Shown: piece after piece, positions 1,857-15,309 of the stretch | How positions within the stretch are numbered: position 1 is the stretch's first letter | Layout: each line of letters begins with the position of its first letter | Virus record (IMG/VR): IMGVR_UViG_3300034375_007960 | Coordinates: 1 to 20,564 of that record | Origin: a virus | Length of the DNA stretch: 20,564 nt | Reading direction: 5' to 3' (one strand) | Made by a program: the position numbers and the translations under genes | The notes under the pieces: model-generated | What the model saw: only the letters and a program-made list of their open reading frames with translations | What the model was told of the DNA's origin: nothing | Database searches by the model: none

Positions 1857-4800
1857 TGGCTGGAATCGGAACCTTGATCAAAGGCGCGGCGAAGCAGATT
1901 CGCCGCATCGGCGACGAGTTCGACCCGCGCTTCGACCCGCGCAAGAAGGAGCAGGAGCGCCTCCAGAACCTTGAGGTTGCCGTGGAGCCGCGCCCCCTTG
2001 ATCGTCCCCAGGTCAGTATCGCGGACTTTGAGGGCCACCCGTTCGTCACCTCCATGTCTGACCGCACCGCTGCCGGCGGGCTGCTCACGGACATCCGCGG
2101 GCTCCCGCTCAGCGAGCCCGTGAACCTGCGCGGCGGCCAGGACTTCATGTTCGATTACAACCCCGGGCAGGTCTGGGCCTCGGGCAAGGCGCAGGCCTCG
2201 GATATCTTCTCGGCTGCCCAAATGGCCAAGGCAAATACCGGCCGGGATCCGATCTTCCTGCCCTGGCGCATGGCGCCCACGGGCGGGGACTTCGCGACCA
2301 TGACCGGCGAGACTATGCTGTCCTTTGCCCGGGACAGCATGAACAAGAAAACCAAGCGCAGCCTGGACTCTAAGCTCAAGAGGATCATCCCCGACTGGCC
2401 TGGCATCGACAGCCCTGACGCGATTGACGTTTTCCGGGGGGCCCCTGACAAAGCTCGCAAGGCGGCGAAAAACGTCATGGACGTGGAGTTCCGAGACCGC
2501 GGCGGCCTGTCCATTGGCGAGGCGCGCCTTGCGGTGGCCGATCCTGCTCAGCTTGATGCTCAGCAAGGCGGCGTGCAGAACGTGGGGCGCATCCTTACCG
2601 ATTTGGAGATGGATTTCTCGACCCACCCGAGCTACCCCTACGCGGTGCCCGGGGAGGGCGTCGGCGTGCTCAAGGAGGACATCAACGTCTTTGAGCTCCT
2701 GCCGGATATCGTCGAGGCCCGGAGCATCCCGGATCCTCTGAGCCCGCGAGACACGGACCTGCGCTCCATGCAGATGGGCGCGAAGGCTGGCCGTATCACC
2801 CCGGAGCTCCTCCGCAAGATCCTCGGCGGTGGCGCGGGCGCTGCCGTCGGTATCGAGGCCCTGCTCCAGGAAGAGGCCCAGGCGGCTCCGCTCATGGCGC
2901 CCGGCATGGCTCTCGGCGGCGCGGTGTCTAGGGCGATCGCCCGCTTGATGGAGGCAGGCATGTCGCGGGAAGCTGCCGAGCGGGTCGTGCGCGGCGAGAT
3001 GCCGCCGGCGCTCCCGGATCGCGCGCCTCCGCGCCTGACCTTCTCCGCGGACAACCCCAAGGCAATCGGGGCGATTCCGAACATCCTCAACTTCGTCGAC
3101 CAACCCTTCTACCAGATCCTGGAAAAGGACCTCATCCCCGAGCTGGTGATGATGTCCCCCGACGAGTACATCACCGAGGCGTCGAGGATCCTGTCCCGCC
3201 AGTCCCCCGGAGAGGCCGACTTCGATAACGTCGTCCGAAGCCGCACCCAGGACATGGAGTACCTCCAGGGGATCCAGGACCTGCTTGATCAGGGCGCAGA
3301 CTTCCAGGTCCCGTTCCTGGACTACAAGCGCGGCGGCCAGGAAGGACTTCACCGCACGATCGCTGCCCGGAACCTCGGGGAGGAGCAGATCCCCGTGATG
3401 GTTATGCGCTCCGTCAAGGGCGATAACTACATCCCCCTGACCCAGGCCGAGCAGGACGCCATAAACGCGGCCAGGCTTGAGGACCTGCGGGCGAAGGGCT
3501 ACCCGGAGTCGACGGTCCAGAAGATCATGGGCGACGAGCTCTCCATGAACCCCGATATTCGCCGTGAACGGGCCTATCGCCAAGGCAAGCGGCAGCGCCT
3601 TTTTCACGCCGGCAGCCCCGAGCTCGCGACGGCCACGCAGCTCGACCCTGACGCCGGACGGTTTGGACGCTCCGGGAGCGGGGTTTGGATGACCCCGGAG
3701 CCGGTGCTCGCGAACACCTACGTTCCACCGGGGGTCGAGAACGCGGGCACGATGTACGAGTTCCTGGTGGATGACTCCAAGTTCCCGACATTTATCGGGA
3801 GCGGGAACTGGGACGAGGCCGTCGGGGACCTTTACAGCCCTGATTACGACAGGATCCTTGAAGACGTCTCCGGGACCACCAACGAGATCGCGCGCCAGGT
3901 GCGCGAGATGGGCTACCCGGGGATGAAGTTCACCGGGATCAGCGACGTGGGCCCGAATTACCAGGCAGCGAAGCGCTCGGCCGAGATGATCGCCCCCCAG
4001 TACGGGATGGAGCCTAAGGAGCTCCTGGACTCCACGATCGGCGACCGCGCCGTTGACGACTACGAGGTCTATACGATCTTCGACCCCAGCGTCGCCCGCT
4101 CGCCGACCGCCGCCTTTGACCCTGATCAGGTCGATTCCCCGAATCTCATGGCGGGCCTAGGCCCCGCAGCTATCGGCGCTGGTCTTCTGGGCGCCGCCAT
4201 GGCCCCCGAGGAGGCCGAAGCCGCCGGCTTTGGCACCCTGGCTCGGGCTATTGGCCGCCCGACCCAGCGCCTGTTCCAGGGCTCGTCGGCGAAGTTCGCG
4301 CGCCCGAGCATGCAGAGCGTGGGCACGGGCACCGGTAACCAGGCCTTTGGCTATGGCCTGTACTTCACCGAGGCCCCGGATATCGCCGGCACTTATAAGC
4401 GTGGCCTGGCGAACAAGAAAATGATCCAGGGCATAGAGGACCAGGGCCTGGTACCCGGGGTAAGCGCGAGCGAGCTCGATGACATGATCGACGAGGGCGT
4501 TTTCGGCGAGGCCGAGACCCGCTTCCTGAGCGCGCTCCGGGATGCCGACTACCTGGGCTTTGATAACGTCCACAACGCGGCCATGGTTGCCTTGAAGCGC
4601 GGGGATCTGGCTAAGCGCTACGATGCCGCGAATGACCCGGCGGTGGCCGAGCTCGACAAGATCGCCAACGAGCTCGGGTTTCTCTACGAGGTCGAGGTGC
4701 CCGAGGGCAGCTTCATCGAGTGGGACCTGCCCCTCGACCAGCAGCCCGAGGTCGTGCAGCAGGTGGTGAAGCAGAATGCACCACCCGAGCTCCAGAAGCG

Positions 4801-5806
4801 CATCGAGAGCGGGCAGCTGAAGGGCCTGGAGGCCTACTACCTGTTCGGGAAGGACCCCGAGGTCAACAGCATGATGTGGGGCCAGTACGGTGTGCCCGGG
4901 ATCCGCTACAGCTCTGTGCGCACGAAGGAGGGCAAGACGAGCCCGGACGCGCCGCGCAACTACGTCATCTTCGACGAGAACCTGATCAACATCGTCCGCC
5001 GGAACGACGAGGCCCTGGAGAACAACTTCGACGAGCTCGCTGCCCGCATGTCGGCGACCGACGTGCGCAAGCCCCTTGCGGCGGTCCTCGGCGCAGGCGC
5101 GGCGGGCGCTACCCAGGCTGGGCAGGAAGACGTCCCGGACTACATGCGCCGCCTCGATGGCTCGATCAAGTCTGAGCGCGGCTTCTTGGGTCCGATCCGG
5201 AATAACGTCTCCGGCCGCACCATGACCGAGGTCTCGGTGGGCCAGCCGGGCTCGGAGGAGGGCTTCTACCCGCTTCTGGTTCCGACCTTGACCCGGGATG
5301 AGATCGAAACAATCGCGAACATGGATCTTGGGCGCGAGCGTCCGCCCCAGGCGATCATCGAGAAGGCCCGGGCCCACGCCATGGATCGCATCGATCGCGG
5401 CCTGAGCCCGTTCTACCAGGATGGGGAAGAGACCGCCGGGGCTATGTTCGGCGAGTATGATGCCCGCGCGTCCGAGCGCCTCAGCCAGGAGCTCGCGCGG
5501 CTCATGCAGCTGGCCGATATTGCCCGCCAGCCGAAGATTGAGCCCCTTCAGGATCTCTATGGTCTTGCGACGGCGGGCGATTACTTCCTGGAGGACCGCC
5601 CAAGCGAGATGGACGCCCTCCAGCGCGCCCTGCAGCGCCTGGACATGGCCCAGGGCGTTGGCGAGTGGCTCCAGACCACTGGCCAGGGCGACCCGACGAC
5701 GGTCATGCAGGATCTCATGGCCGGGCTGGACATCTTCGACGTGGCGAGCCTCCTCCCCGGGGCGGGCGCCGCAGCAGCCAAGGCCGTGCGCCGAGCGGGC
5801 CAGTAA
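1856..5806 (+). CDS. Large polyvalent protein with ParB-like and ADP-ribosyltransferase domains
   Basis: 1316 aa, the largest gene here. Domains in order: a conserved N-terminal region (about 55-340, with SMSDRTAAGG and GGQDFMFDYNPGQVWAS); a hydrophobic Ala/Gly segment (about 328-365); a ParB/Srx-like domain (about 410-530) with QEGLHRTIAARNLGEEQIPV, His499-Arg500 central; a first ART-like module (about 582-757) opening with LFHAGSP and closing with FDP; a hydrophobic Gly/Ala segment near 766-790; a second ART module (about 805-1010) with GTGTGNQAFGYGLYFTE and a closing RNYVIFDENLINIV; a conserved DGSIKSERGFLGP...YPLLVPTL...GLSPFY module (about 1100-1190); and a helical tail. Such domain strings are known as polyvalent proteins of phages and conjugative elements, thought to enter the host with the DNA and modify host targets. 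NAD-dependent transfer and virion location are inferred. It is followed by a promoter at 5816-5844. Confidence 0.75.
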   Translation: MAGIGTLIKGAAKQIRRIGDEFDPRFDPRKKEQERLQNLEVAVEPRPLDRPQVSIADFEGHPFVTSMSDRTAAGGLLTDIRGLPLSEPVNLRGGQDFMFDYNPGQVWASGKAQASDIFSAAQMAKANTGRDPIFLPWRMAPTGGDFATMTGETMLSFARDSMNKKTKRSLDSKLKRIIPDWPGIDSPDAIDVFRGAPDKARKAAKNVMDVEFRDRGGLSIGEARLAVADPAQLDAQQGGVQNVGRILTDLEMDFSTHPSYPYAVPGEGVGVLKEDINVFELLPDIVEARSIPDPLSPRDTDLRSMQMGAKAGRITPELLRKILGGGAGAAVGIEALLQEEAQAAPLMAPGMALGGAVSRAIARLMEAGMSREAAERVVRGEMPPALPDRAPPRLTFSADNPKAIGAIPNILNFVDQPFYQILEKDLIPELVMMSPDEYITEASRILSRQSPGEADFDNVVRSRTQDMEYLQGIQDLLDQGADFQVPFLDYKRGGQEGLHRTIAARNLGEEQIPVMVMRSVKGDNYIPLTQAEQDAINAARLEDLRAKGYPESTVQKIMGDELSMNPDIRRERAYRQGKRQRLFHAGSPELATATQLDPDAGRFGRSGSGVWMTPEPVLANTYVPPGVENAGTMYEFLVDDSKFPTFIGSGNWDEAVGDLYSPDYDRILEDVSGTTNEIARQVREMGYPGMKFTGISDVGPNYQAAKRSAEMIAPQYGMEPKELLDSTIGDRAVDDYEVYTIFDPSVARSPTAAFDPDQVDSPNLMAGLGPAAIGAGLLGAAMAPEEAEAAGFGTLARAIGRPTQRLFQGSSAKFARPSMQSVGTGTGNQAFGYGLYFTEAPDIAGTYKRGLANKKMIQGIEDQGLVPGVSASELDDMIDEGVFGEAETRFLSALRDADYLGFDNVHNAAMVALKRGDLAKRYDAANDPAVAELDKIANELGFLYEVEVPEGSFIEWDLPLDQQPEVVQQVVKQNAPPELQKRIESGQLKGLEAYYLFGKDPEVNSMMWGQYGVPGIRYSSVRTKEGKTSPDAPRNYVIFDENLINIVRRNDEALENNFDELAARMSATDVRKPLAAVLGAGAAGATQAGQEDVPDYMRRLDGSIKSERGFLGPIRNNVSGRTMTEVSVGQPGSEEGFYPLLVPTLTRDEIETIANMDLGRERPPQAIIEKARAHAMDRIDRGLSPFYQDGEETAGAMFGEYDARASERLSQELARLMQLADIARQPKIEPLQDLYGLATAGDYFLEDRPSEMDALQRALQRLDMAQGVGEWLQTTGQGDPTTVMQDLMAGLDIFDVASLLPGAGAAAAKAVRRAGQ

Positions 5807-5871: not shown

Positions 5872-6105
5872 ATGAGCGCTGCAAGGAAGAAGCAATTTTA
5901 CAACCGGGTGCGCCGCACCTGCCGGCTCCACGACCTGGAGATCGTCTTCGACGGCGCGCCCAAGAACTACCGCGCCGTCGAGATCAAGAAGAACGGCATG
6001 ACCCTCTTCGCCGACCGTGGCGATGGCTTCAAGCCCCTCGATATTAACTGGGAGCGCCTCCACGGCGAGCTCGCGGACTATGGATTCCGCGGGGGTGTGA
6101 AATGA
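5872..6105 (+). CDS. Small basic protein of unknown function
   Basis: 77 aa, starting at ATG 5872 behind a strong ribosome binding site (AGGAGGT, 5861-5867). The N-terminus is rich in Lys and Arg (MSAARKKQFYNRVRRTCR), then alternating strand-like segments (LEIVFDG, YRAVEIKKNGMTLFAD) and a helix at the end. No family is recognised. Its own promoter and the ATGA overlap with the recombinase gene suggest a partner or regulator of that gene, such as a DNA-binding accessory protein, but no helix-turn-helix is evident. The strong start signals make it a real gene; the function is open. Confidence 0.72.
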   Translation: MSAARKKQFYNRVRRTCRLHDLEIVFDGAPKNYRAVEIKKNGMTLFADRGDGFKPLDINWERLHGELADYGFRGGVK

Positions 6106-6876
6106 TCGAGCCCGGGAAGCGCATCAACAAGATCTACGGCTACTGCCGGGTCTCGACCGTCGAGCAGGCGCGCCACGGGGTGAGCATCGAGCTCCAGAAG
6201 CGCCACATCGAGGAGTTCGTGCGGGAGAAGTACAACCGCGAGGTCGATGGCTTCTTCATCGACGAGGGCGTCTCGGGCAAGGTCGGCATCTCCGAGCGCC
6301 CGGGTTCCCATGCCCTGACCATGGCCCTGGAGGAGTGGGACATCGTCATCTCGACGCGCCTCGACCGGCTCTCGCGCTCCACCCATGACCTGCTGCAGAT
6401 CATCCCCCAGCTCCAGGAGAGCAACGTGACCCTGTTCTTCTGCGAGCAGTTCGGGGACGTGCCCATCGTCTACCCGCGTGCGGGCGAAGTTCGACATGAA
6501 CCAGATGACCAACCAGATCATGCTCATGGTGCTCTCGGCCGTGGCCGAGCTGGAGCACGGCCTGATCAAGGACCGCTTCGCCGACGGCAAGGTCGACTGG
6601 GCCACCCGGGGCTACAGCATCGGCGGAAGCGTGCCCTACGGCTACCGGAAGGTGCGCGAGCGCCACGGGAACAACGGCCGCGTGCGCCTGGAGCCGGTGC
6701 CCGACGAGCAGCGCGTGATCCGCACGATCCAGCGCCTGTCCGACCGCGGCCTGGGGCACCAGAAGATCGCGACCCAGGTGCGCTCGCTCCACGCCAACGC
6801 CCGGGACATGAACCGCCACAAGGTGCGCCGGATCCTTGAGCGCAAGGAGCAGGGCTTGCATTACGAGCACGTTTGA
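6102..6876 (+). pseudogene. Serine recombinase (resolvase/invertase family), frameshifted
   Basis: The first frame (from ATG 6102) gives a complete resolvase N-domain: YGYCRVST with catalytic Ser18, FIDEGVSG, and the active-site helix STRLDRLSRS, up to DVPIVYP near 6476. The family pattern then resumes in the +1 frame (AKFDMNQMTNQIMLMVLSAVAELE, the E-helix region), followed by a Recombinase-type DNA-binding domain (GYSIGGSVPYGYRKV ... HKVRRILERK) ending at TGA 6874-6876. The original protein would be about 257 aa. The shift lies in a GC palindrome at 6473-6484; compared with the expected YPRAKF there are four extra bases. It could be a real mutation, a sequencing error or, least likely, programmed frameshifting. 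If functional, it would integrate, resolve or invert DNA. Its start overlaps the stop of the previous gene (ATGA). Confidence 0.8.
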
Positions 6877-7064: not shown

Positions 7065-7784
7065 GTGGCGATCCAGGAGGGCTGGGGCAGGGGTACCTGG
7101 GGCCTAGGCGCCTGGGGCACGCCCCTGTACATCGATGTCCCCGTCACCGGGGTCCAGACCACCTCCGCCCTAGGCACGCCCCTGGTCGACGCCGAGGCGA
7201 ACGTCCCGGTCACCGGCCTGGGGATTACCAGCGGCCTGGGCACCGTATCGGTGGTCGCCAAGGCAAACGTGAGCCCCGACTCCCAGGCCATCACCTCGGC
7301 CCTAGGCACCCCTGCGGTTACAGCCATCGGGAACGTCTTCCCCGCCGGCCAGGCCGCCACGGCGGGCCTGGGCACCCCGGAGGTCGACGCCGGGGCCGTG
7401 GTCGAGCTCACGGGCTTCCAGGTTAACAGCGCCCTGGGGACGGTGGATATCGTCGCCAAGGCCAATGTGGTGCCCACGGGGCAGGCGACGACGAGCGCCC
7501 TGGGCACGGTCTTCATCTCGTTCGGGATTACCCTGACCCTAGACGGTCAAGGCATGACCAGCGCCCTGGGCACGCCCATCGTGGACGCCGCGGCGATCGT
7601 GGAGCTCACGGGCCTGGGTATCACGAGCACCTTGGGCAAAGTTCTGGTCTATGGTGAAATTGACACCGACCAGACGCCGAACTATGCGACGATTAGCACG
7701 ACCCAGTCTCCGGGCTATACTCCCGTGGACACGAGCCAGTCACCAAATTACGAGGACATCCCGGCGGCGCGAGACGCTGCCTGA
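7065..7784 (+). CDS. 22-residue-repeat protein, probable tail-fibre or virion surface component
   Basis: 239 aa from GTG 7065, the only start in frame after the TAA codon at 7053. The N-terminus is Trp/Gly-rich (GWGRGTWGLGAWG), common in marine phage virion proteins. Residues 25 to about 200 form eight tandem 22-residue units of pattern V.xTG...TSALGT..V.A.A with no insertions, predicted beta-rich. The tail holds three 11-residue units (pattern I.T.QSPxY..), exactly half the main period, before IPAARDAA. Such regular repeats suggest an elongated beta-solenoid or fibre shaft. It sits directly upstream of the S74 tail fibre, so a role in the same appendage is likely. No clear ribosome binding site precedes the GTG, so translation probably depends on the gene upstream. 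Function is inferred from repeats and context. Confidence 0.7.
   Translation: MAIQEGWGRGTWGLGAWGTPLYIDVPVTGVQTTSALGTPLVDAEANVPVTGLGITSGLGTVSVVAKANVSPDSQAITSALGTPAVTAIGNVFPAGQAATAGLGTPEVDAGAVVELTGFQVNSALGTVDIVAKANVVPTGQATTSALGTVFISFGITLTLDGQGMTSALGTPIVDAAAIVELTGLGITSTLGKVLVYGEIDTDQTPNYATISTTQSPGYTPVDTSQSPNYEDIPAARDAA
7137..7664 (+). repeat. Eight diverged 66-bp coding repeats
   Basis: Eight consecutive 66-base units encode 22-residue repeats aligned on the TSALGT core (SALGT, SGLGT, AGLGT or STLGK in different copies). The length is conserved while the bases have diverged, so selection acts on protein periodicity rather than on recent DNA duplication. Confidence 0.8.
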
Positions 7785-7800: not shown

Positions 7801-10122
7801 ATGGCCACTTACGTCAACGACTTGCGCCTGACCGAGCTCGCCACCGGCGAGGGCTCCGGGACCTGGGGTACGACGACGAACACGAACCTGGAGCTCATCG
7901 GCGAGGCCCTGGGCTACGGCACGCAGGATGGCTTTCCGACCGACGCCGATGCCACTACCACGGTCGCTGACGGCGCCTCGGATCCGGCTCGCGCCATGTA
8001 CTTCAAGGTGACCTCCTCGGCCACCCTGACCGCGACCCGCACCCTGACCATTGCCCCGAACACGGTCAGCCGGGTGATGCTCATCGAGAACGCCACCACC
8101 GGCTCCCAGTCCATCGCCATCTCCCAGGGCAGCGGCGGCAACGTCACCATCGCCAGCGGCCAGACTAAGATGGTCTACCTCGACGGGGCGGGTTCTGGCG
8201 CGGCTGTGGTTGATGCCCTGGCGGATCTTGAGCTGGGCACCATCACCGTCGCCGACCTCACCGCCACCACTGCGGACATCAACGGCGGCACCATCGACGG
8301 CGTGACCATTGGCGGGTCGAGTGCTGGGGCGGGTACGTTTAGTGGGCTGACGGTTGAAAACACTGACGCAACTATTACGCTTTCTGGTACTCGTGGAACT
8401 GGAGACACGCACACAATCGCTACGGCAGGTGCAAATAGTCAAAACTTAAACATTAGTGCTGACGATTCTATATTTCTTAGAACATCTGACACAGTTCAGC
8501 GCATAGGTATTTTCTCAGGCGGCGACATCTCCTTCTACGAGGACACCGGCACCACGCCTAAGTTCTTCTGGGATGCGAGTGCGGAGTCGTTGGGGATTGG
8601 GACGAGTTCGCCATCAACTTTCTTAGATATTGATGCATCCCAGTCAGTTTCTTATGGGGCCACCTCTAACAACGATGTTTATTTTGAGATAGCCAACAGA
8701 ACAGAGGCTAATGGTCAATTTAGCGGTATGCGTTTCTTAACAGAAAACGCAAGTGGCGTTGCGTCTTGGTGGAACGTAGGTGCTATATCCACAGCCAGTA
8801 ATTACGATACTGATCTGGTTTTTCAGCAACGCACAGGCGCTGCAACCTATTCGGAAGCCATGCGCATCGACTCCAGCGGCAACCTCGGCTTGGGCGTGGT
8901 GCCGAGTGCTTGGGGCGCAAGCTACAAAGCATTGCAGTTTGCTTCTGGTGCTATTGCTGGCTTTAGCACTACCGCGCTTGACCTTTACGGGAACGCCTAT
9001 GACAGCGGCACGGGCGCTTGGAAATATTTGAACTCGTCTCAAGGGGCAACCCGATACGCTGCTTTCGATGGGCAACACCAATGGTTCAACGCCCCCTCCG
9101 GCACCGCAGGCAACGCGATTTCGTTCACGCAGGCGATGACGCTGGATGCGAGTGGGAATCTCGGGATTGGGACGAGTTTGCCTACGGCTAAGCTGCATAT
9201 CTTGGCTGACACCCCTGTACTAATGAATAATGCTGCTGGTACTTCAGAAGGCAAATTTGATTATGTGGATTCCGGCGCAACGCTGCGGATGCACAACTTT
9301 TTTGGAACGGGGTCAAACATTACGTTCTTGACTAACCCCAATAGCGGCGCAGTCACAGAACGCATGCGCATCGACTCCAGCGGGAACGTCGGCTTGGGGT
9401 TAGTGCCAAATACTTGGAGCGTAGGCAAGGCGCTTGAACTTGGGTTTGAAGGCAATGCTCTTTGGGGTAACGCTGCCGACGAAGTAATTGTTGTTCAAAA
9501 CGCTTACTACAACTCAGGTTGGAAATACGCTACAACACGGCCTGCTACACATTACTCCCAGTACAACGGCGGTCATCGTTGGTTTACGGCTGCATCTGGC
9601 ACCGCTGATGCCGCCTTGTCGTGGACGCAGGCGATGACGCTCGACTCCAGCGGTAACCTGCTGGTGGGGACGACGAGTAGCACGGTTGCAAACCCCGGAG
9701 TGGTCCTCTACCCCTCTGGGCAGCAAGCAATCGGACACGCAAACGGAACCGTTAGCGGTACGGCATTTTCGTCATTTCTCTATAACAACGGCGTTATCGG
9801 TTCAATCAGCCAAAATGGCACCACTGCCGTTCTTTACAACACCTCCTCCGACGCTCGCCTAAAGGAAAACATCGCGGACGCAGAGGACGCCGGGGCCAAG
9901 GTAGACGCTATTCAGGTTCGCCAGTTCGACTGGAAAGCTGACGGCTCGCATCAAGACTACGGCATGATCGCCCAAGAGCTGATGACCGTTGCGCCTGAAG
10001 CCGTAAGCGGCGACCCCGAGTCTGACGACATGATGGGCGTGGACTACAGCAAGCTAGTGCCCATGCTCGTTAAAGAAATCCAATCCCTACGCGCCCGTGT
10101 CCATGCGCTTGAAGGTAAGTGA
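7801..10122 (+). CDS. Tail fibre with C-terminal Peptidase_S74 intramolecular chaperone
   Basis: 773 aa, ATG 7801 behind TGAGGGA (7788-7794). The N-terminus (MATYVNDLRLTELATGEGSGTWGT) and following beta-rich region suit attachment to the tail. The middle has repeated 'MRIDSSGN.GLG..P' and 'TLDASGNLGIGT' fibre motifs. The last 90 residues are a Peptidase_S74 chaperone: SSDARLKENI with the Ser683-Asp684 cleavage site, FDWKADGSHQDYGMIAQEL, and a closing coiled coil (SLRARVHALEGK). In this family the chaperone trimerises the fibre and then cuts itself off, leaving the mature receptor-binding trimer. Parts of the middle are clearly richer in A and T than neighbouring genes, a sign of module exchange. 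Its end overlaps the next gene. Confidence 0.9.
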   Translation: MATYVNDLRLTELATGEGSGTWGTTTNTNLELIGEALGYGTQDGFPTDADATTTVADGASDPARAMYFKVTSSATLTATRTLTIAPNTVSRVMLIENATTGSQSIAISQGSGGNVTIASGQTKMVYLDGAGSGAAVVDALADLELGTITVADLTATTADINGGTIDGVTIGGSSAGAGTFSGLTVENTDATITLSGTRGTGDTHTIATAGANSQNLNISADDSIFLRTSDTVQRIGIFSGGDISFYEDTGTTPKFFWDASAESLGIGTSSPSTFLDIDASQSVSYGATSNNDVYFEIANRTEANGQFSGMRFLTENASGVASWWNVGAISTASNYDTDLVFQQRTGAATYSEAMRIDSSGNLGLGVVPSAWGASYKALQFASGAIAGFSTTALDLYGNAYDSGTGAWKYLNSSQGATRYAAFDGQHQWFNAPSGTAGNAISFTQAMTLDASGNLGIGTSLPTAKLHILADTPVLMNNAAGTSEGKFDYVDSGATLRMHNFFGTGSNITFLTNPNSGAVTERMRIDSSGNVGLGLVPNTWSVGKALELGFEGNALWGNAADEVIVVQNAYYNSGWKYATTRPATHYSQYNGGHRWFTAASGTADAALSWTQAMTLDSSGNLLVGTTSSTVANPGVVLYPSGQQAIGHANGTVSGTAFSSFLYNNGVIGSISQNGTTAVLYNTSSDARLKENIADAEDAGAKVDAIQVRQFDWKADGSHQDYGMIAQELMTVAPEAVSGDPESDDMMGVDYSKLVPMLVKEIQSLRARVHALEGK
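8860..9681 (+). repeat. Tandem duplicated module of about 105 residues in the tail fibre
   Basis: Two related modules start with the identical 20-mer ATGCGCATCGACTCCAGCGG at 8860 and 9364. Both continue GLG.VP..W, then WKY, then a Gln/Gly-His-x-Trp-Phe motif and SGTA, and end QAMTLD.SGNL. The shared ACGCAGGCGATGACGCT lies at 9127 and 9625, an offset of about 500 bases. The spacer between them differs. Confidence 0.75.
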
Positions 10123-10411
10123 GGTAAAGACGGCTACCGACCCCGCCCAGTGGGCGGTATTTCGCAGGCAGGAGCTGATACACGAACACCTTGACCAGCA
10201 CGGGATGAAGAACCCCATCGTGGTCAACAGCAAGAACGAGCTTCAGTTTGGCGGGTGTCGGTTGCAGTACGCGGTGCTAAGGGGTCTGGAGGAGATTGAG
10301 GTTATAGTCACCGACGACATGGACGAGGTTCGGAGACTGCAAGACGAACAGTCACTTTTTGAGTACACGTTCCTGCCGGAACAGTACATTGAGCGAAAAC
10401 AAGGAGCATAA
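10103..10411 (+). CDS. ParB-like nuclease-fold protein
   Basis: About 102 aa. I prefer ATG 10103 over GTG 10097; both overlap the 3' end of the tail-fibre gene in another frame, and neither has a clear ribosome binding site. The sequence follows the ParB/Srx fold: a helix (WAVFRRQELIHEHLDQHG), a strand (NPIVVNSKNELQFGG), then GCRLQYAVLRGLEEIEVIVTDD, matching the family's 'GG.R..A....G...I.V'. The C-terminal DNA-binding domains of full ParB are missing. In phages such short proteins are known near lysis or tail genes, with proposed roles from nuclease to transcription factor. It stops three bases before the next ATG. Confidence 0.7.
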   Translation: MRLKVSEVKTATDPAQWAVFRRQELIHEHLDQHGMKNPIVVNSKNELQFGGCRLQYAVLRGLEEIEVIVTDDMDEVRRLQDEQSLFEYTFLPEQYIERKQGA

Positions 10412-10413
10412 CC

Positions 10414-10731
10414 ATGGCAGCAACTATGAACTGGCAGATCAGCACGTTAGAGCGTGAACTCGCAGACGGGGGAGTTATCGTGGCGCACTGGAGAATTTCC
10501 GCCTCTGAGACCGTTGGCGAAGATACCTTCTCCGCTTCCAGCTACGGCACCTGTGGCTTTACCCCTGATGCCTCTGCGCCTGACTTCGTGGCCTATGACA
10601 GCCTTACGGAAGCGACCGTGCTGGGCTGGCTGTGGGCTGACGGCGTGGACAAGGACGCAACCGAGGCGGCGCTACAAGCCAATATCGACGCGCAGAAGAA
10701 CCCCACGACCGCTGATGGAGTGCCGTGGTAA
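10414..10731 (+). CDS. Conserved small phage protein (DUF7936-like), unknown function
   Basis: 105 aa, ATG 10414 with AAGGAG at 10401-10406. The sequence ([23 protein letters not shown], then [22 protein letters not shown], and a C-terminal [17 protein letters not shown]) matches from memory a small family common next to tail-fibre genes in marine phages. It looks like a beta sandwich followed by a helix, without membrane or signal segments. Its place between fibre and lysis genes suggests a virion accessory or fibre-assembly protein. The family name is from memory. Its TAA overlaps the following ATG. Confidence 0.78.
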
Positions 10732-10928
10732 TGGATACTTTCTTCGCACTGTTCGACGCTCTCCCTGCTTGGATCAACGCCATCACGGCATTGGTCACGG
10801 CAGCTACGGCTATCACCGCTCTCACTCCGAGCAAGACCGACGACAAGTACGTCAGCATCGCCCTGCGCGTGTTAAATACGATTGCCGGGAATGTGGGCAA
10901 GAATAAGAACGCCGATGATGTAGAATAG
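10731..10928 (+). CDS. Small protein with a hydrophobic N-terminus, unknown function
   Basis: 65 aa. ATG 10731 overlaps the previous stop (TAATG); a GTG at 10725 is in frame but less likely. Residues 4-32 ([19 protein letters not shown] then Ala/Thr-rich) form a hydrophobic stretch long enough for one membrane helix. A conserved-looking polar tail follows ([30 protein letters not shown]). I recall similar short proteins in phage lysis regions. It could be an accessory holin or antiholin, but that rests on position and hydrophobicity alone. Confidence 0.65.
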
Positions 10929-10956
10929 CCAGGGGGCGGGGTGATGGAGCGCAGCA

Positions 10957-11436
10957 ATGATCGACCCGATCACGGCCATCACCGCCGCCACCACGGCGTA
11001 CAAGACGGTCCAAAAGTTAGTCGCGGCTGGCCGCGATATTGAAGACACCATGGGCCAGCTGGCCCAGTGGTACGGCGCGGTTTCTGATTTAAACGAAGCA
11101 GAGCGCCAGGCCAAGAACCCTCCCCTGTTCCGGAAACTGATCGCCTCCAAGAGCGTTGAGCAGGAGGCGATGGAGCTTTTCGCCCACAAGAAGAAGATCC
11201 AGGCCCAGGAGCGCGACCTGCGCGAGATGCTGCTCTACAGCTATGGGAAAGAGGGCTATAGCGAGATGATGGCCATGCGGAAGCAGATCCGCGCCGACCG
11301 CGAGAAGGCGGTCTACGCCCAGGCCAGGAAGCGCAAGGAGCTCTTCTGGAACACGGTCACGTTTGTGGTTATCCTTGCACTGGTCGCCGGTTTCGGTGGC
11401 TTACTTTATTTGGCGCTGGGAGCGATAAAACAATGA
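10957..11436 (+). CDS. C-terminally membrane-anchored protein of the lysis region
   Basis: 159 aa, ATG 10957 with GGAG at 10946-10949. The N-terminal half is helical (ITAATTAYKTVQKLVAAGRDIEDTMG). A conserved stretch follows (SKSVEQEAMELFAHKKKIQA, then QERDLREMLLYSYG), a strongly basic segment (IRADREKAVYAQARKRKE), and one membrane helix (about 131-154). Positive charge before the helix favours the bulk of the protein staying in the cytoplasm. I recall it as a conserved hypothetical in marine phages. The place in the lysis cassette suggests a role at the inner membrane, but it lacks the outer-membrane partner expected of a spanin pair. ATGA overlap with the next gene. Confidence 0.72.
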   Translation: MIDPITAITAATTAYKTVQKLVAAGRDIEDTMGQLAQWYGAVSDLNEAERQAKNPPLFRKLIASKSVEQEAMELFAHKKKIQAQERDLREMLLYSYGKEGYSEMMAMRKQIRADREKAVYAQARKRKELFWNTVTFVVILALVAGFGGLLYLALGAIKQ

Positions 11437-11660
11437 TCACGATCGACGGTAAAGAGTACGACCCCGAGACCTTTGAAGGCGAGGCCAAGATCCACTTTGA
11501 ACAGGTGGCGGCCATCCGCGAGCAGCTGGGTCAGATCAGCAACCAAATCGGGCAGCTGCAGCAAGCTGGCCTGAACCTCCAGGTCGCCCTGGGCTGGCGT
11601 GAGCAATCGCTCATCTCGGCCGTGACGGCCTCGGAGGATGATGACGAAGAGGCCGCATAA
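11433..11660 (+). CDS. Small acidic protein, DUF6447-like
   Basis: 75 aa; ATG 11433 overlaps the previous TGA (ATGA). The start (MITIDGKEYDPETFEGEAKIH) followed by a helical region (FEQVAAIREQLGQISNQIGQ, then LQQAGLNLQVAL) and an acidic end fits a small family (DUF6447, named from memory) whose members begin with ITIDGxEYD and end in a coiled helix. There is no membrane segment. Function is unknown; its position inside the lysis cassette is the only clue. Confidence 0.68.
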   Translation: MITIDGKEYDPETFEGEAKIHFEQVAAIREQLGQISNQIGQLQQAGLNLQVALGWREQSLISAVTASEDDDEEAA

Positions 11661-11673
11661 GGACGTGATCGAC

Positions 11674-11985
11674 ATGGCTACCAATGACGTGCTGAACGAG
11701 CGATTGAACGCTCTCCACGGGGATCTTTCCGAGGTCAAGTCAGCCCTGGCTCAGCTATCGGAGGCTATAACTAAGCTGGCCCTCGTTGAGGAGCGTCAAT
11801 CACAGACGGCATCGGCATTGGAACGAGCATTCAAGACCATCGACAAGATTGAGCAGCGCGTCAGCGCGATCGAGAAGGCTAACGTCAAGCACAGCACGAC
11901 CAGCATCTGGGTCGACCGCGGAATCTCCGCAGCTTTTGCGATCGCGGCGATGATTATTCTCCGCAGCATGGGGATCACCTGGTGA
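11674..11985 (+). CDS. Coiled-coil protein with C-terminal membrane helix
   Basis: 103 aa from ATG 11674, chosen because AAGGA at 11659-11663 is ten bases upstream; the upstream in-frame GTG at 11665 sits too close to that site and ATG 11638 would overlap the previous gene. A long heptad-like helix fills residues 7-70 (LNERLNALHGDLSEVKSALA onward). One membrane helix follows at about 83-101 (GISAAFAIAAMIILRSMGI), then the C-terminus. Coiled coil plus terminal membrane helix resembles small phage lysis accessory proteins, but no family is certain. It lies directly before the holin, sharing a GTGA junction with it. Confidence 0.7.
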   Translation: MATNDVLNERLNALHGDLSEVKSALAQLSEAITKLALVEERQSQTASALERAFKTIDKIEQRVSAIEKANVKHSTTSIWVDRGISAAFAIAAMIILRSMGITW

Positions 11986-12377
11986 TCGAGGCCCTGATCG
12001 GCCCGGTCACCGGGCTGCTCGACAAGTTCGTCGAAGACAAAGACCAGAAGGCCCGGTTGGCGCATGAAATTGCGACGATGGCGGAAAAACATGCGCAGGA
12101 AAGTGCGCTAGCGCAGATCGAGGTCAACAAGGCCGAGGCCGCGAGCCGGAATGTTTTTGTGGCGGGCTGGAGGCCCTTTATCGGATGGACCTGCGGGGTG
12201 GCCCTGGCATGGCATTTTGTACTCGCGCCCTTCGTACTCTTCGCGGCTGGTTGGGCCGGGGTCGAGCTGCCGAAGCTGCCGGCCTTCGATATGGACAACC
12301 TGATGACGGTTCTGCTGGGGATGCTGGGCCTGGGCGGGCTCAGGACCTGGGAGAAGACCAAGGGGATCGCCCGATGA
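11982..12377 (+). CDS. Holin, GTA_holin_3TM-like family
   Basis: 131 aa from GTG 11982, overlapping the previous TGA. A charged helical N-terminus (LLDKFVEDKDQKARLAHEIA) leads to the family's core: GWRPFIGWTCGVALAWHFVL (62-81) running into a long hydrophobic region to about 93, then a second one (MTVLLGMLGLGGLRTWEK, 108-125). That core is typical of the 3TM holins named after gene transfer agents. Holins form holes in the inner membrane at a set time and let the lysozyme reach the cell wall. The lysozyme gene follows with a four-base overlap. Confidence 0.88.
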   Translation: MIEALIGPVTGLLDKFVEDKDQKARLAHEIATMAEKHAQESALAQIEVNKAEAASRNVFVAGWRPFIGWTCGVALAWHFVLAPFVLFAAGWAGVELPKLPAFDMDNLMTVLLGMLGLGGLRTWEKTKGIAR

Positions 12378-12823
12378 AGACCGGGCCCGATGGCCTGGAG
12401 CTCATCAAGCACTTTGAGGGCTGCGAGCTCAAGGCCTACTGGTGCCCGGCTGGCGTCCTGACCATCGGCTACGGCCACACCGCCGACGTCGACGAGGGCG
12501 ATGAGATTGAGCAGGAGGACGCCGACCGGCTCCTGGAGGCGGACCTGGAGGAGTTTGAGCACTATGTGCTCCAGTTTGTCGAGCCTGAGCTCACGCAGCA
12601 CCAGTTCGACGCCATCGTGGCGTGGACCTTCAACCTGGGGCCGGGGAACCTCAAGGAAAGCACGCTCCTGAAGCGCCTGAACGAGGGGGACTTCGATGAC
12701 GTGCCGGCCCAGATCCTCCGGTGGACCAAGGCCGGCGGCAAGGAGCTCCCTGGTCTTGTCCGCAGGCGCGAAGCTGAGGCTTTGCTGTTCCTGGGAGAGG
12801 ACTGGCGGAAATGTCTAGCCTAG
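12374..12823 (+). CDS. Endolysin, GH24 lysozyme (muramidase)
   Basis: 149 aa from ATG 12374 (ATGA junction with the holin gene); the frame is also open upstream to 12185, but that is shadow of the holin gene. The GH24 catalytic pattern Glu-x8-Cys-x5-Thr is complete: Glu15, Cys24, Thr30 in HFEGCELKAYWCPAGVLTIG. FDAIVAWTFNLGPGNLKEST and GLVRRREAEALLFL, also family hallmarks, follow. The enzyme cuts the beta-1,4 bond between MurNAc and GlcNAc in peptidoglycan. There is no signal peptide or SAR helix, so it should stay in the cytoplasm until the holin opens the membrane. Its end overlaps the terminase gene by 13 bases. Confidence 0.93.
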   Translation: MKTGPDGLELIKHFEGCELKAYWCPAGVLTIGYGHTADVDEGDEIEQEDADRLLEADLEEFEHYVLQFVEPELTQHQFDAIVAWTFNLGPGNLKESTLLKRLNEGDFDDVPAQILRWTKAGGKELPGLVRRREAEALLFLGEDWRKCLA

Positions 12824-15309
12824 CGATCAAGGATTTCGACCTACTCTCCGACAGTGAAAAGGCGGAGGCCATGGCCCTGCTCAAGCGCTACGACGCGCTT
12901 GAGAAGCAGGAGAGCGCGCAGAAGAATTTCCTGTCCTTCGTGAAGACCCAGTGGCCTGACTTCATCGAGGGCCGCCACCACCGGATCATCGCCGAGAAGT
13001 TCGACCGCATCGCCGCCGGCAAGCTGAAGCGCCTGATTGTCTGTTTGCCACCGAGGCATTGCCTTGAGACTGATACCCCGGTGCTGACCACCGATGGCTG
13101 GAAGACCATGGCCGAGGTCGAAACCGGGGACTATGTCTTTGGACCAGACGGCCAGCCCACTCGCGTCACGGGCAAATCTCCGGTCTACGAAGACGTTGAG
13201 CTCTACCGCGTGACGACCAACGACGGCGCCTCGGTCATCACTGACGCAAAGCATCGCTGGTGGGTGCGCCTGGACCGCAAGCACAAGAAGTTCAAGGAGT
13301 ACACGACAGAAGAGCTCTGGCAGCGCGATCAGGGGTCCTTCTTGCGCCGCCACAGCAGCGGCACGCTGGAGATCCGCCCTGGAGCAGTGGCGAACCCTAG
13401 GGCCGCCATGATTCCCGACACAGAGGCCGTGGAGCTCCCTGAGCGTGATCTCCTGGTGGATCCTTATGTGCTCGGGCTTTGGCTGGGCGACGGTTCAAAG
13501 CATCAAGCCATTATCACCGCGCATGATGACGACGCAGGCTTCTATCGAGCAGAGTTTGCTCGCCGCGGCTACGAGACCACCGACCAGTCTACGCGCTTCT
13601 CTTTTGGCATCCTGAACTTGAAAGTGAAGCTGCGGGATATTGGCGTGCTTGGGAACAAGCACGTCCCGGCAGATTACATGGTCGCCAGCATTGAGCAGCG
13701 AAAGGATCTTGTGCGCGGCCTGATGGACTCTGACGGGAATGTGTCGAAGGCCGGGCAGTGCTTCTTTGCCCAGAAGGACCGGGCGCTGATCGACCAGTTC
13801 AGGGAGCTCCTCTGGTCCCTGGGCGTCAGAAATACGGTGCAAATTTCTGAGGCCAAGATTGGCGATCGATCCTATGGGCCGACCTACAAGGTGTCTTTCT
13901 ACGCTCCGGATCTTTGCCTGTTACCCCGCAAGCGCGAGCGCGCTAAGGCGACTGTTTATGGGCGGTTTATCCGCATCGAAAAGCTAGAACGCCGCGGCAA
14001 CGTGCAATGCGTACAGGTTGAGCGCGAGGATGATCTATTCCTCGCCGGCAAGGGTCTGGTCTGCACTATGAACAGCAAGTCCGAATTTGCCTCGACCTTC
14101 TTCCCGGCGTGGATGATGGGGCGCCGCCCGAACCTGAAGATCATCCAGGCGACGCACACCGCAGAGCTCGCGGTGCGGTTCGGCCGCCGGGTGCGGAACA
14201 TCATCGACAGCGATGAGTTCCAGGAGGTCTTCCCGAGCCTGCAGCTTGAGGGCGACAACAAGAGCGCCGGCCGCTGGACCACCAACGGCGGTGGCGAGGC
14301 CTTCTACTCGGGCGTGGGCGGTGCGATCACCGGCCGCGGTGCTGACCTGCTGGTGATTGACGACCCCGTATCGGAGCAGGACGCGCTCTCGGCGACGGCC
14401 CTGGACAGCATCTACGAGTGGTACACCTCCGGCCCCCGGCAGCGTCTCCAGCCCGGCGGGATCATCGTGATCGTCATGACCCGGTGGTCGACCAAGGATC
14501 TCGTGGGGCGCGTGCTGAAGAAGCAGGGCGACGACTACGCGGACCAGTGGGAGGTGGTCGAGTTCCCGGCGATCATGCCCGAGAGCGAGGAGCCGCTTTG
14601 GCCTGAATACTGGAAGAAGGAAGAACTCCTCTCGGTCAAGGCCTCGCTGCCCATCGCGAAGTGGAACGCGCAGTGGATGCAGAACCCGACCGCCGAGGAG
14701 GGCTCGATCGTCAAGCGCGAGTGGTGGCGGCGCTGGGAGCCGGACCACGTCCCGGCCTACAGCTACGTCATTCAATCCTACGATACGGCCTACAGCAAGA
14801 AGGAGACCGCCGACTACTCGGCGATCACCACCTGGGCGATCTTCCAGCCCGAAAATGACGGGCCCGAGCAGATCATCCTCCTCGACGCCAAGCGCCTGCG
14901 GGTAGACTTTCCGGAGCTCAAGCGTGCGGCCATGGAGGAGTACCGATACTGGGAGCCGGACTGCGTGCTCATCGAGGCCAAGGCCTCGGGCACGCCCCTG
15001 ACCCACGAGCTCCGGCGCATGGGTATCCCGGTGACCGCGTATACGCCGAGCCGGGGGCAGGATAAGATCGCCAGGATGAACAGCGTTGCCCCGATCTTTG
15101 AGTCGGGTATGGTGTGGGCACCGGAGCAGACCTTCGCCGAGGAGGTCATCGAGGAGATGGCCTCGTTCCCCTACGGGGACCACGATGACTTCTGCGACTC
15201 GGCGACCATGGCCTTGATGAGGTTTCGCCAGGGCGGATTTGTTACCCTTGACGAAGACTATCAAGAAGAGATGCGGCCGCTACGGCGAGACAGGGTGGTT
15301 TATTACTGA
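12811..15309 (+). CDS. terL: Large terminase subunit (TerL) containing an intein
   Basis: 832 aa as translated; 494 aa after removal of the intein (84-421). The two exteins join to give LPPRH-SKSEFAS, a Walker A-type ATP-binding loop. Then follow a Walker B motif (LLVIDDP, Asp517/Asp518) and the coupling motif MTRW. The C-terminal RNase H-like nuclease has Asp658 (SYDTAYS), Glu722 (VLIEAKASG) and Asp793/Asp796 (HDDFCDS). The enzyme pumps DNA into the procapsid and cuts the concatemer. Without splicing the ATP site would be split by 338 residues, so splicing is required. ATG 12811 follows GGAGAGG (12794-12800). The portal gene overlaps the stop (TGATG). No small terminase gene was recognised nearby. 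Confidence 0.94.
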   Translation: MSSLAIKDFDLLSDSEKAEAMALLKRYDALEKQESAQKNFLSFVKTQWPDFIEGRHHRIIAEKFDRIAAGKLKRLIVCLPPRHCLETDTPVLTTDGWKTMAEVETGDYVFGPDGQPTRVTGKSPVYEDVELYRVTTNDGASVITDAKHRWWVRLDRKHKKFKEYTTEELWQRDQGSFLRRHSSGTLEIRPGAVANPRAAMIPDTEAVELPERDLLVDPYVLGLWLGDGSKHQAIITAHDDDAGFYRAEFARRGYETTDQSTRFSFGILNLKVKLRDIGVLGNKHVPADYMVASIEQRKDLVRGLMDSDGNVSKAGQCFFAQKDRALIDQFRELLWSLGVRNTVQISEAKIGDRSYGPTYKVSFYAPDLCLLPRKRERAKATVYGRFIRIEKLERRGNVQCVQVEREDDLFLAGKGLVCTMNSKSEFASTFFPAWMMGRRPNLKIIQATHTAELAVRFGRRVRNIIDSDEFQEVFPSLQLEGDNKSAGRWTTNGGGEAFYSGVGGAITGRGADLLVIDDPVSEQDALSATALDSIYEWYTSGPRQRLQPGGIIVIVMTRWSTKDLVGRVLKKQGDDYADQWEVVEFPAIMPESEEPLWPEYWKKEELLSVKASLPIAKWNAQWMQNPTAEEGSIVKREWWRRWEPDHVPAYSYVIQSYDTAYSKKETADYSAITTWAIFQPENDGPEQIILLDAKRLRVDFPELKRAAMEEYRYWEPDCVLIEAKASGTPLTHELRRMGIPVTAYTPSRGQDKIARMNSVAPIFESGMVWAPEQTFAEEVIEEMASFPYGDHDDFCDSATMALMRFRQGGFVTLDEDYQEEMRPLRRDRVVYY
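13060..14073 (+). mobile_element. LAGLIDADG intein in the terminase Walker A motif
   Basis: 338 residues, beginning with Cys84 (CLETDTPVLTTDGWKTMAEV, a classic intein N-terminal block) and ending with Asn421 before Ser422. Block B is a DAKH form (VITDAKHRWWV). Two LAGLIDADG-like helices contain the expected acidic residues: LGLWLGDGS (Asp227) and GLMDSDGN (Asp306, Asp308), so a homing endonuclease is probably intact. The C-terminal block reads LFLAGKGLVCTMN: the usual penultimate His is Met, known in some splicing inteins but unusual. The protein cuts itself out, joining the exteins; the endonuclease would spread the element into empty terminase genes. Confidence 0.92.

Follow-up and report, generated by a model that had tools for sequence, protein, structure and literature searches.

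A family of 22-residue repeat proteins encoded beside the S74 tail fibre of marine phages: a candidate beta-solenoid rod at the fibre base

The window, that is the whole stretch of DNA analysed here, is an IMG/VR virus record of 20,564 bases (IMGVR_UViG_3300034375_007960). It carries a gene for a repeat protein directly upstream of a tail fibre gene (Table 1). The open reading frame begins at position 7065 with the Trp motif GWGRGTWGLGAW, in which G6, W7, G8, W12 and W17 are invariant across a 46-row alignment. Eight consecutive 22-residue units, with no insertion or deletion, and three 11-residue units come next, as the initial annotation had described from the letters alone. It had placed the array correctly apart from its start, set at 7137 and thus off by 9 nt relative to the phase used here, and it had omitted the Trp motif.

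Table 1. Features of the window and of related loci (L numbers; positions refer to the named locus)
Feature	Position	Strand	Basis or remark
Serine recombinase (resolvase/invertase type)	6102..6876		Split over two frames
Repeat protein CDS, GTG start, 239 aa	7065..7784	+	ORF reading; dN/dS
N-terminal Trp motif GWGRGTWGLGAWGTPL	7065..7127	+	Invariant residues in 46-row alignment
Eight 22-residue units	7128..7655	+	Self-identity analysis; family profile
Three 11-residue units, Q-[TS]-P-x-Y (EIDTDQTPNYA, TISTTQSPGYT, PVDTSQSPNYE)	7656..7754	+	Unit counts in relatives
C-terminal DIPAARDAA	7755..7781	+	Stop codon follows; ORF end 7784
Neighbouring tail fibre, 773 aa	7801..10122	+	PHROG tail fibre matches; Pfam Peptidase_S74
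Fibre N-terminal domain, phrog_31104	7801..8250	+	Adjoins the array gene in relatives
S74 intramolecular chaperone domain, fibre residues 683-735	9847..10005	+	Pfam
Region of changed GC content	8100..12000		Fall begins inside the fibre gene
Large terminase	12811..15306		Inserted LAGLIDADG/Hint-like element
Serine recombinase in L003	4964..5809		One open frame
SU10-adaptor-like genes in L062	3280..3945; 4251..4898		Flank the phrog_28581 gene
Interrupted array in L145	1426..4023		Insert after the third detected unit
CsgF and CsgG genes in L042	10899..12189		Few kb downstream of array and fibre
CsgF and CsgG genes in L020	10805..12167		Few kb downstream of array and fibre

Self-identity of the array reached 0.44 at a lag of 22 residues and 0.42 at a lag of 44. 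Over all lags between 5 and 88, the values obtained in 2000 shuffles peaked at 0.24, so that none attained the periodicity of the real sequence. Pairs of repeat copies have 6–13 of 22 residues and 25–44 of 66 bases in common (mean 35.7), which is why the earlier statement that the DNA had diverged while the length was kept is correct. The dN/dS of the gene is 0.22 between the window and L004 and ranged from 0.11 to 0.44 over the seven pairs tried; the gene is under purifying selection.

Several other features of the window were recorded. The split serine recombinase upstream of the array is a single open frame in L003, and many of the closer relatives likewise have a recombinase upstream of their array. 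A search for invertase sites that could invert the fibre gene gave nine weak inverted-repeat pairs (14–24 nt, 71–94% complementary), none of them convincingly arranged by eye, and fibre inversion was set aside. Past the conserved N-terminal part of the fibre gene, GC content falls from about 0.65 to 0.50–0.55 and then stays near 0.55–0.60 to about position 12000, beyond the fibre gene; the drop within the gene could possibly mark a mosaic join. The element inserted in the large terminase is, judging from its Pfam matches, probably an intein with a homing endonuclease, LAGLIDADG_3 being its one part above the Pfam cut-off.

Relatives were collected in five scans of viral contigs, which kept 80 of 108, 80 of 346 and 80 of 278 matches, 45 matches (43 loci) and 68 matches (68 loci); the scans overlap, and one contig was often fetched repeatedly. 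One scan of bacterial and archaeal genomes added two loci. In all, 356 loci were read, six annotated phage stretches included. A profile trained on the first relatives detected the array in 355 of them, as expected for loci that had been fetched by similarity. The only miss (L086) is the stretch from Roseobacter phage CRP-902, whose gp53 is encoded on the minus strand and was therefore not read by the counting script; another profile finds this protein at E 2e-6. Judged by their last 200 residues, 243 proteins are distinct, 234 of them complete.

Among these 234 relatives, the step from one unit to the next is exactly 22 residues in 1793 of 1991 cases. The other commonest steps are 44 (56 cases), 24 (37), 23 (35) and 47 residues (26), a step of 44 meaning that one unit fell under the profile threshold, since degenerate units are not counted. 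The strict 22-residue spacing is thus a trait of the family, though not an absolute one. Comparison of repeat number between related phages, which the initial annotation had proposed, gave counts of 3 to 25 units per protein and showed that close relatives differ by whole units. For example, L045 and L053 are 66 residues apart (9 versus 12 units). In four pairs (L044/L045, L103/L102, L069/L066 and L007/L011) the difference is 22 residues and lies wholly inside the 11-residue tail. The Trp motif precedes the array in 144 of the 234 proteins, and 213 end in AA.

With its 22-residue units, its 11-residue aromatic tail and the fibre gene directly downstream, the window protein belongs to the same array family as those of HTVC023P and HTVC027P. 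This is a large, widespread and unnamed protein family of marine phages. No PHROGs or Pfam family matched the window repeat protein at E ≤ 1. Over 26 members, nothing credible was obtained: PHROGs matched a single member (E 0.05), Pfam gave three families, seen in 4, 2 and 1 members and reaching E 0.002 at best, and NCBIfam matched a single member (E 0.007). A PDB sequence search with the 26-row alignment returned ribosomal L3 rows alone (E 0.54–0.61), hence no credible match. Literature searches found no publication on this 22-residue repeat. Cyanophage relatives of the array, which we had assumed would exist, were not found by BLAST, whose low-complexity filter may hide such sequences. The two loci from the genome collection, the only matches of the one query used there, carry array and fibre genes on contigs binned with bacteria (L167 in a Rhodobacteraceae MAG, L168 in a Trichodesmium MAG); they are possibly hints to hosts, or else viral contigs that ended up in the bins.

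The initial annotation had put the repeat protein upstream of the S74 fibre, and the link between the two genes holds across the family. Of the 221 distinct complete loci that have at least 250 nt of downstream sequence, 220 carry a fibre-type N-terminal motif no more than 400 nt beyond the array gene, L087 being the sole exception; 217 of these motifs were recognised by pattern, and those of L236, L239 and L241 were read by eye. According to BLAST among the closer relatives, the N-terminus of the fibre is conserved while the remainder often is not, so that it is the distal part that varies. The pairing is not universal, because the array protein of MW202675 is not followed by a fibre of this N-terminal type, and in CRP-603 a protein that looks array-like by eye lies beside a fibre with a different N-terminus.

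In L060, L062 and L078 the array gene closes the tail module, ahead of the fibre. The gene order, read by eye, is adaptor-like, phrog_28581-like, adaptor-like, a small ORF, phrog_644-like, array and fibre. In L062, the one of the three submitted to profile search, the two adaptor-like genes each hit Pfam SU10_adaptor, and the assignments to phrog_28581 and phrog_644 were confirmed. The pair of adaptor-like genes flanking the phrog_28581 gene is reminiscent of the two adjacent tubeA genes of Sulfitobacter phage PhiGT1, as described in excerpts of PMC10386132. The window record itself does not include the adaptor genes. Separately, L042 and L020 carry the curli secretion genes CsgF and CsgG a few kb downstream of array and fibre; curli genes in HTVC023P-type phages are already reported in excerpts of PMC9599517.

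We then considered the fold of the array. Over 2225 units, positions 2, 4, 6, 9, 11, 15, 18, 20 and 22 are hydrophobic in 66–93% and charged in 0–5% of cases; charge is found mainly at positions 1, 3, 5, 10 and 21. With the first profile, position 16 is Gly in 97% of 514 units. An alternation of this kind is the mark of beta strands with one face turned inward and the other outward.

The initial annotation had suggested a regular beta-solenoid and structure prediction as a check. Monomer prediction gave a divided answer. AlphaFold2 returned an all-beta but poor model for the window protein (46-row alignment, mean pLDDT 49), which speaks neither for nor against the disordered chain that the initial annotation had named as a refutation. 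The relative L077, which is 38% identical to it and more regular, was modelled at a mean pLDDT of 71 (35 rows), with 79–93 over residues 31–190, 73–75 to residue 210, values in the sixties to residue 250 and 32–37 in the 11-residue tail. The confident stretch covers about two thirds of the array, and most units in this model form two strands of about 8 residues. In a second look with VIA-align at Foldseek's own list, the L077 model aligned to right-handed beta-helices at Z about 17, with an rmsd of about 3.5 over 242 residues, and to the tail proteins of P22, HK620, 9NA and phi29 at Z 15.3–16.9. Foldseek gave no match at E ≤ 0.001, in the PDB or among viral models (BFVD); its best row for the L077 model had E 0.0088 and TM 0.26. 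The poor window model returned a pectate lyase as best row (E 0.11, TM 0.44), which we did not retain as proof of a fold.

Excerpts of PMC11795689 report that AlphaFold2 gives confident but false beta-solenoids for perfect repeats, that four programs agree on natural families with diverged repeats, and that stacked internal charges are a warning of false solenoids. A bias of this kind would predict a better score for the more regular L077, and this counts for model error. On the other side, identity between the units has dropped to about half and the buried positions are nearly uncharged, which argues against such an error here. With the 2225-unit alternation, the L077 model and its beta-helix matches on one side and the poor window model on the other, a single-chain beta-solenoid is probably the fold of the 22-residue array, and it stays our best guess.

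Second comes a trimeric fibre shaft, a triple beta-spiral or interlocked chains, with the same place and role; it would be a longer shaft, lying proximal to the S74 fibre. Triple beta-spirals are known from the adenovirus fibre and reovirus sigma1. Strict repeats, Gly at two turns and alternating strands suit this arrangement as well, and a poor monomer model, as obtained for the window protein, is what an obligate trimer would give. It is set against the L077 monomer, which is modelled confidently over about two thirds of its array and aligns at Z about 17 with single-chain beta-helices, and we consider three chains unlikely. The two arrangements predict rods of different length.

The 11-residue units form an aromatic tail. 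Classed by tail length (L278 by eye), 230 of the 234 relatives have 1 (6 proteins), 2 (59), 3 (130), 4 (0) or 5 (35) such units; L083, L085, L087 and L236 were left unclassed. The aromatic ladder begins within the last 22-mer, where an aromatic residue stands at position 21 in 173 of 234 proteins compared to 6 of 1991 other units, and in the window the next aromatic residue comes 11 residues further. The earlier proposal of a changed pitch in this part found no support, given the pLDDT of 32–37 in the L077 tail and the lack of any likeness, by eye, to half a 22-mer, although the ladder does start 11 residues early, inside the last 22-mer.

Tail changes were counted on a quickly built tree of 177 fibre N-termini, a count that recombination of the fibre and short tips inflate. 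One of the most-parsimonious readings has 35 changes: three to five units 19 times, three to two 6 times, two to three 5 times, two to one 4 times and three to one once. Gains from three units are always of two units, and single steps occur elsewhere on the tree. A strict parity rule for the 11-residue units was accordingly dropped, as half of it holds and single-unit changes (three to two, two to three, two to one) do occur. Among the five-unit tails inspected, a set that omits three 57-residue tails of the 35, those of L011, L102 and L156 look like one duplication of a 66-nt pair, and those of L066, L062 and L178 like a single unit copied twice.

A speculative reading, to which we give little credence, is that the 11-residue units are half-coils continuing the rod. 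Two units would then make one coil, and since the C-terminus would have to leave on one face, growth from the three-unit state could proceed by whole coils only. Such a constraint would explain the passage from three to five units without any four-unit tail in the sample. The absence of four-unit tails could as well come from a mutational habit, from recombination of the fibre marker or from the sampling of lineages. If the half-coils were real, this would be a tail part whose length and rotational setting are counted in half-turns and tuned to the fibre base.

Taken together, we propose, with a probability of about one half, that the repeat protein is a tail structural protein of a group of marine podoviruses, a beta-solenoid rod that serves as spacer or anchor at the base of the fibre. 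Each 22-residue unit would form one coil of the stack; at the usual rise of a beta-helix, eight coils would measure about 4 nm. The N-terminal Trp motif may act as a short docking segment, and the C-terminal aromatic units with the conserved AA end as another docking segment or a tether. The rod would sit in the virion with the adaptor ring on one side and the N-terminal anchor domain of the S74 fibre on the other, and whole units gained or lost would set its length in the course of evolution. In Roseobacter phage CRP-902 a similar array and Trp motif are joined to a phrog_28581 domain beside the adaptor gene, and this fusion points to a place at the adaptor; there, gp51 and not the array gene precedes the fibre. 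Literature searches found no virion proteomics or mass spectrometry of HTVC023P structural proteins. The array, the family with its quantised lengths, the adjacency to the fibre, the tail module of relatives, the purifying selection and the in/out alternation are observed; the fold of the window protein, its presence in virions, its contact with fibre or adaptor, its docking segments and its spacer role are inferred.

In the initial annotation the repeat protein was itself a distinct host-recognition fibre. Its location in the tail module of relatives agrees with this, as does a 412-residue step present in three distinct arrays, such as a binding domain carried on a rod might cause. In L145 this step corresponds to an insert of about 390 residues within the array, which was read there and deduced from protein length in L149 and L163. 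PHROG and Pfam searches matched nothing in the L145 protein, nor did a PDB sequence search with its insert, and the window protein consists of the array and short ends only. At E ≤ 1, neither the S74 chaperone nor another fibre family domain was detected in it by PHROG and Pfam, the S74 domain lying in the neighbouring gene. No receptor-binding domain was found, and among the closer relatives the variability sits in the distal part of the neighbouring fibre. A recognition role for the repeat protein is therefore unsupported and appears doubtful.

We regard it as slightly more doubtful still that the protein serves the fibre as assembly factor or chaperone without being part of the virion, like tail fibre assembly proteins. 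The tight coupling to the fibre gene would fit, as such helpers often adjoin fibre genes. The fusion in CRP-902 of a similar array to a phrog_28581 protein beside an adaptor gene argues against it, and a repeat number of 3 to 25 would suit a spacer better than a catalytic helper. A secreted curli-like amyloid, suggested by the CsgG and CsgF genes of L042 and L020 and by the phage curli operons in excerpts of PMC9599517, is very improbable, as no hydrophobic signal segment is seen by eye at the N-terminus MAIQEGWGRGTWG, the 20.6 kb record, which may be a fragment, holds no CsgG, and the array gene of L042 and L020 adjoins the fibre gene, at a distance from those for curli.

If a rod at the fibre base is the right reading, the length quanta of the family (whole 22-residue units, and tails of 1, 2, 3 or 5 units) constitute a natural experiment on how such a rod is tuned. 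The analysis delimits a large unannotated family of probable tail proteins, which cultured pelagiphages carry and roseophages have in fused form, and ties it to the fibre presumed to set host range.

Several known proteins invite comparison. The predicted right-handed beta-helix of L077 resembles the tailspikes of P22, HK620 and 9NA, phi29 gp12 and polygalacturonases (VIA-align Z 13.8–17.2 against beta-helices, among the 50 matches listed). It differs from them by an identity of 7–16% and a Foldseek E that is not significant, and its nearly insertion-free coils would leave no loops to form a catalytic or receptor site. Adenovirus-type triple beta-spiral shafts share strict repeats, Gly turns and alternating strands with the array; the repeat length of the adenovirus shaft is 15. 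Curli CsgA is a two-sided beta-solenoid with repeats near 22 residues and appeared in Foldseek at E 4.6 for the L077 model, but the array protein differs in lacking a signal segment, in its motif and in its tail-module context. Two proteins of uncultured phages, A0A6J5P871 and A0A6J5QA73, rank among the best BFVD hits of the L077 model (identities of 29% and 46%, E 0.0014 and 0.0054); they are unnamed or called "Glycine-rich domain-containing" and, from their identity, probably belong to the array family.

CRP-902 gp53 has 22-residue-like repeats and the same Trp motif, its profile E-value of 2e-6 being obtained outside the training alignment. Unlike the window protein, it is fused behind the phrog_28581 domain, carries the Trp motif C-terminally and lies three genes upstream of the fibre. 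The closest known systems are the "hypothetical protein" homologues of DSL-LC04 (WJZ48131), HTVC027P (gp68) and HTVC023P (gp68), which were part of the profile's own alignment, so that their profile E-values are low by construction. In tblastn, the window protein matched them at E 4e-13, 2e-3 and 1e-2, respectively, and L058 as query matched DSL-LC04 at 4e-25 and HTVC023P at 1e-10. They are only 28–31% identical to the window protein, and in those of HTVC027P and DSL-LC04 the array is interspersed with Trp motifs. All three share with it the 22-residue units and a similar C-terminus, and all three lie upstream of a gene with the same fibre N-terminal motif.
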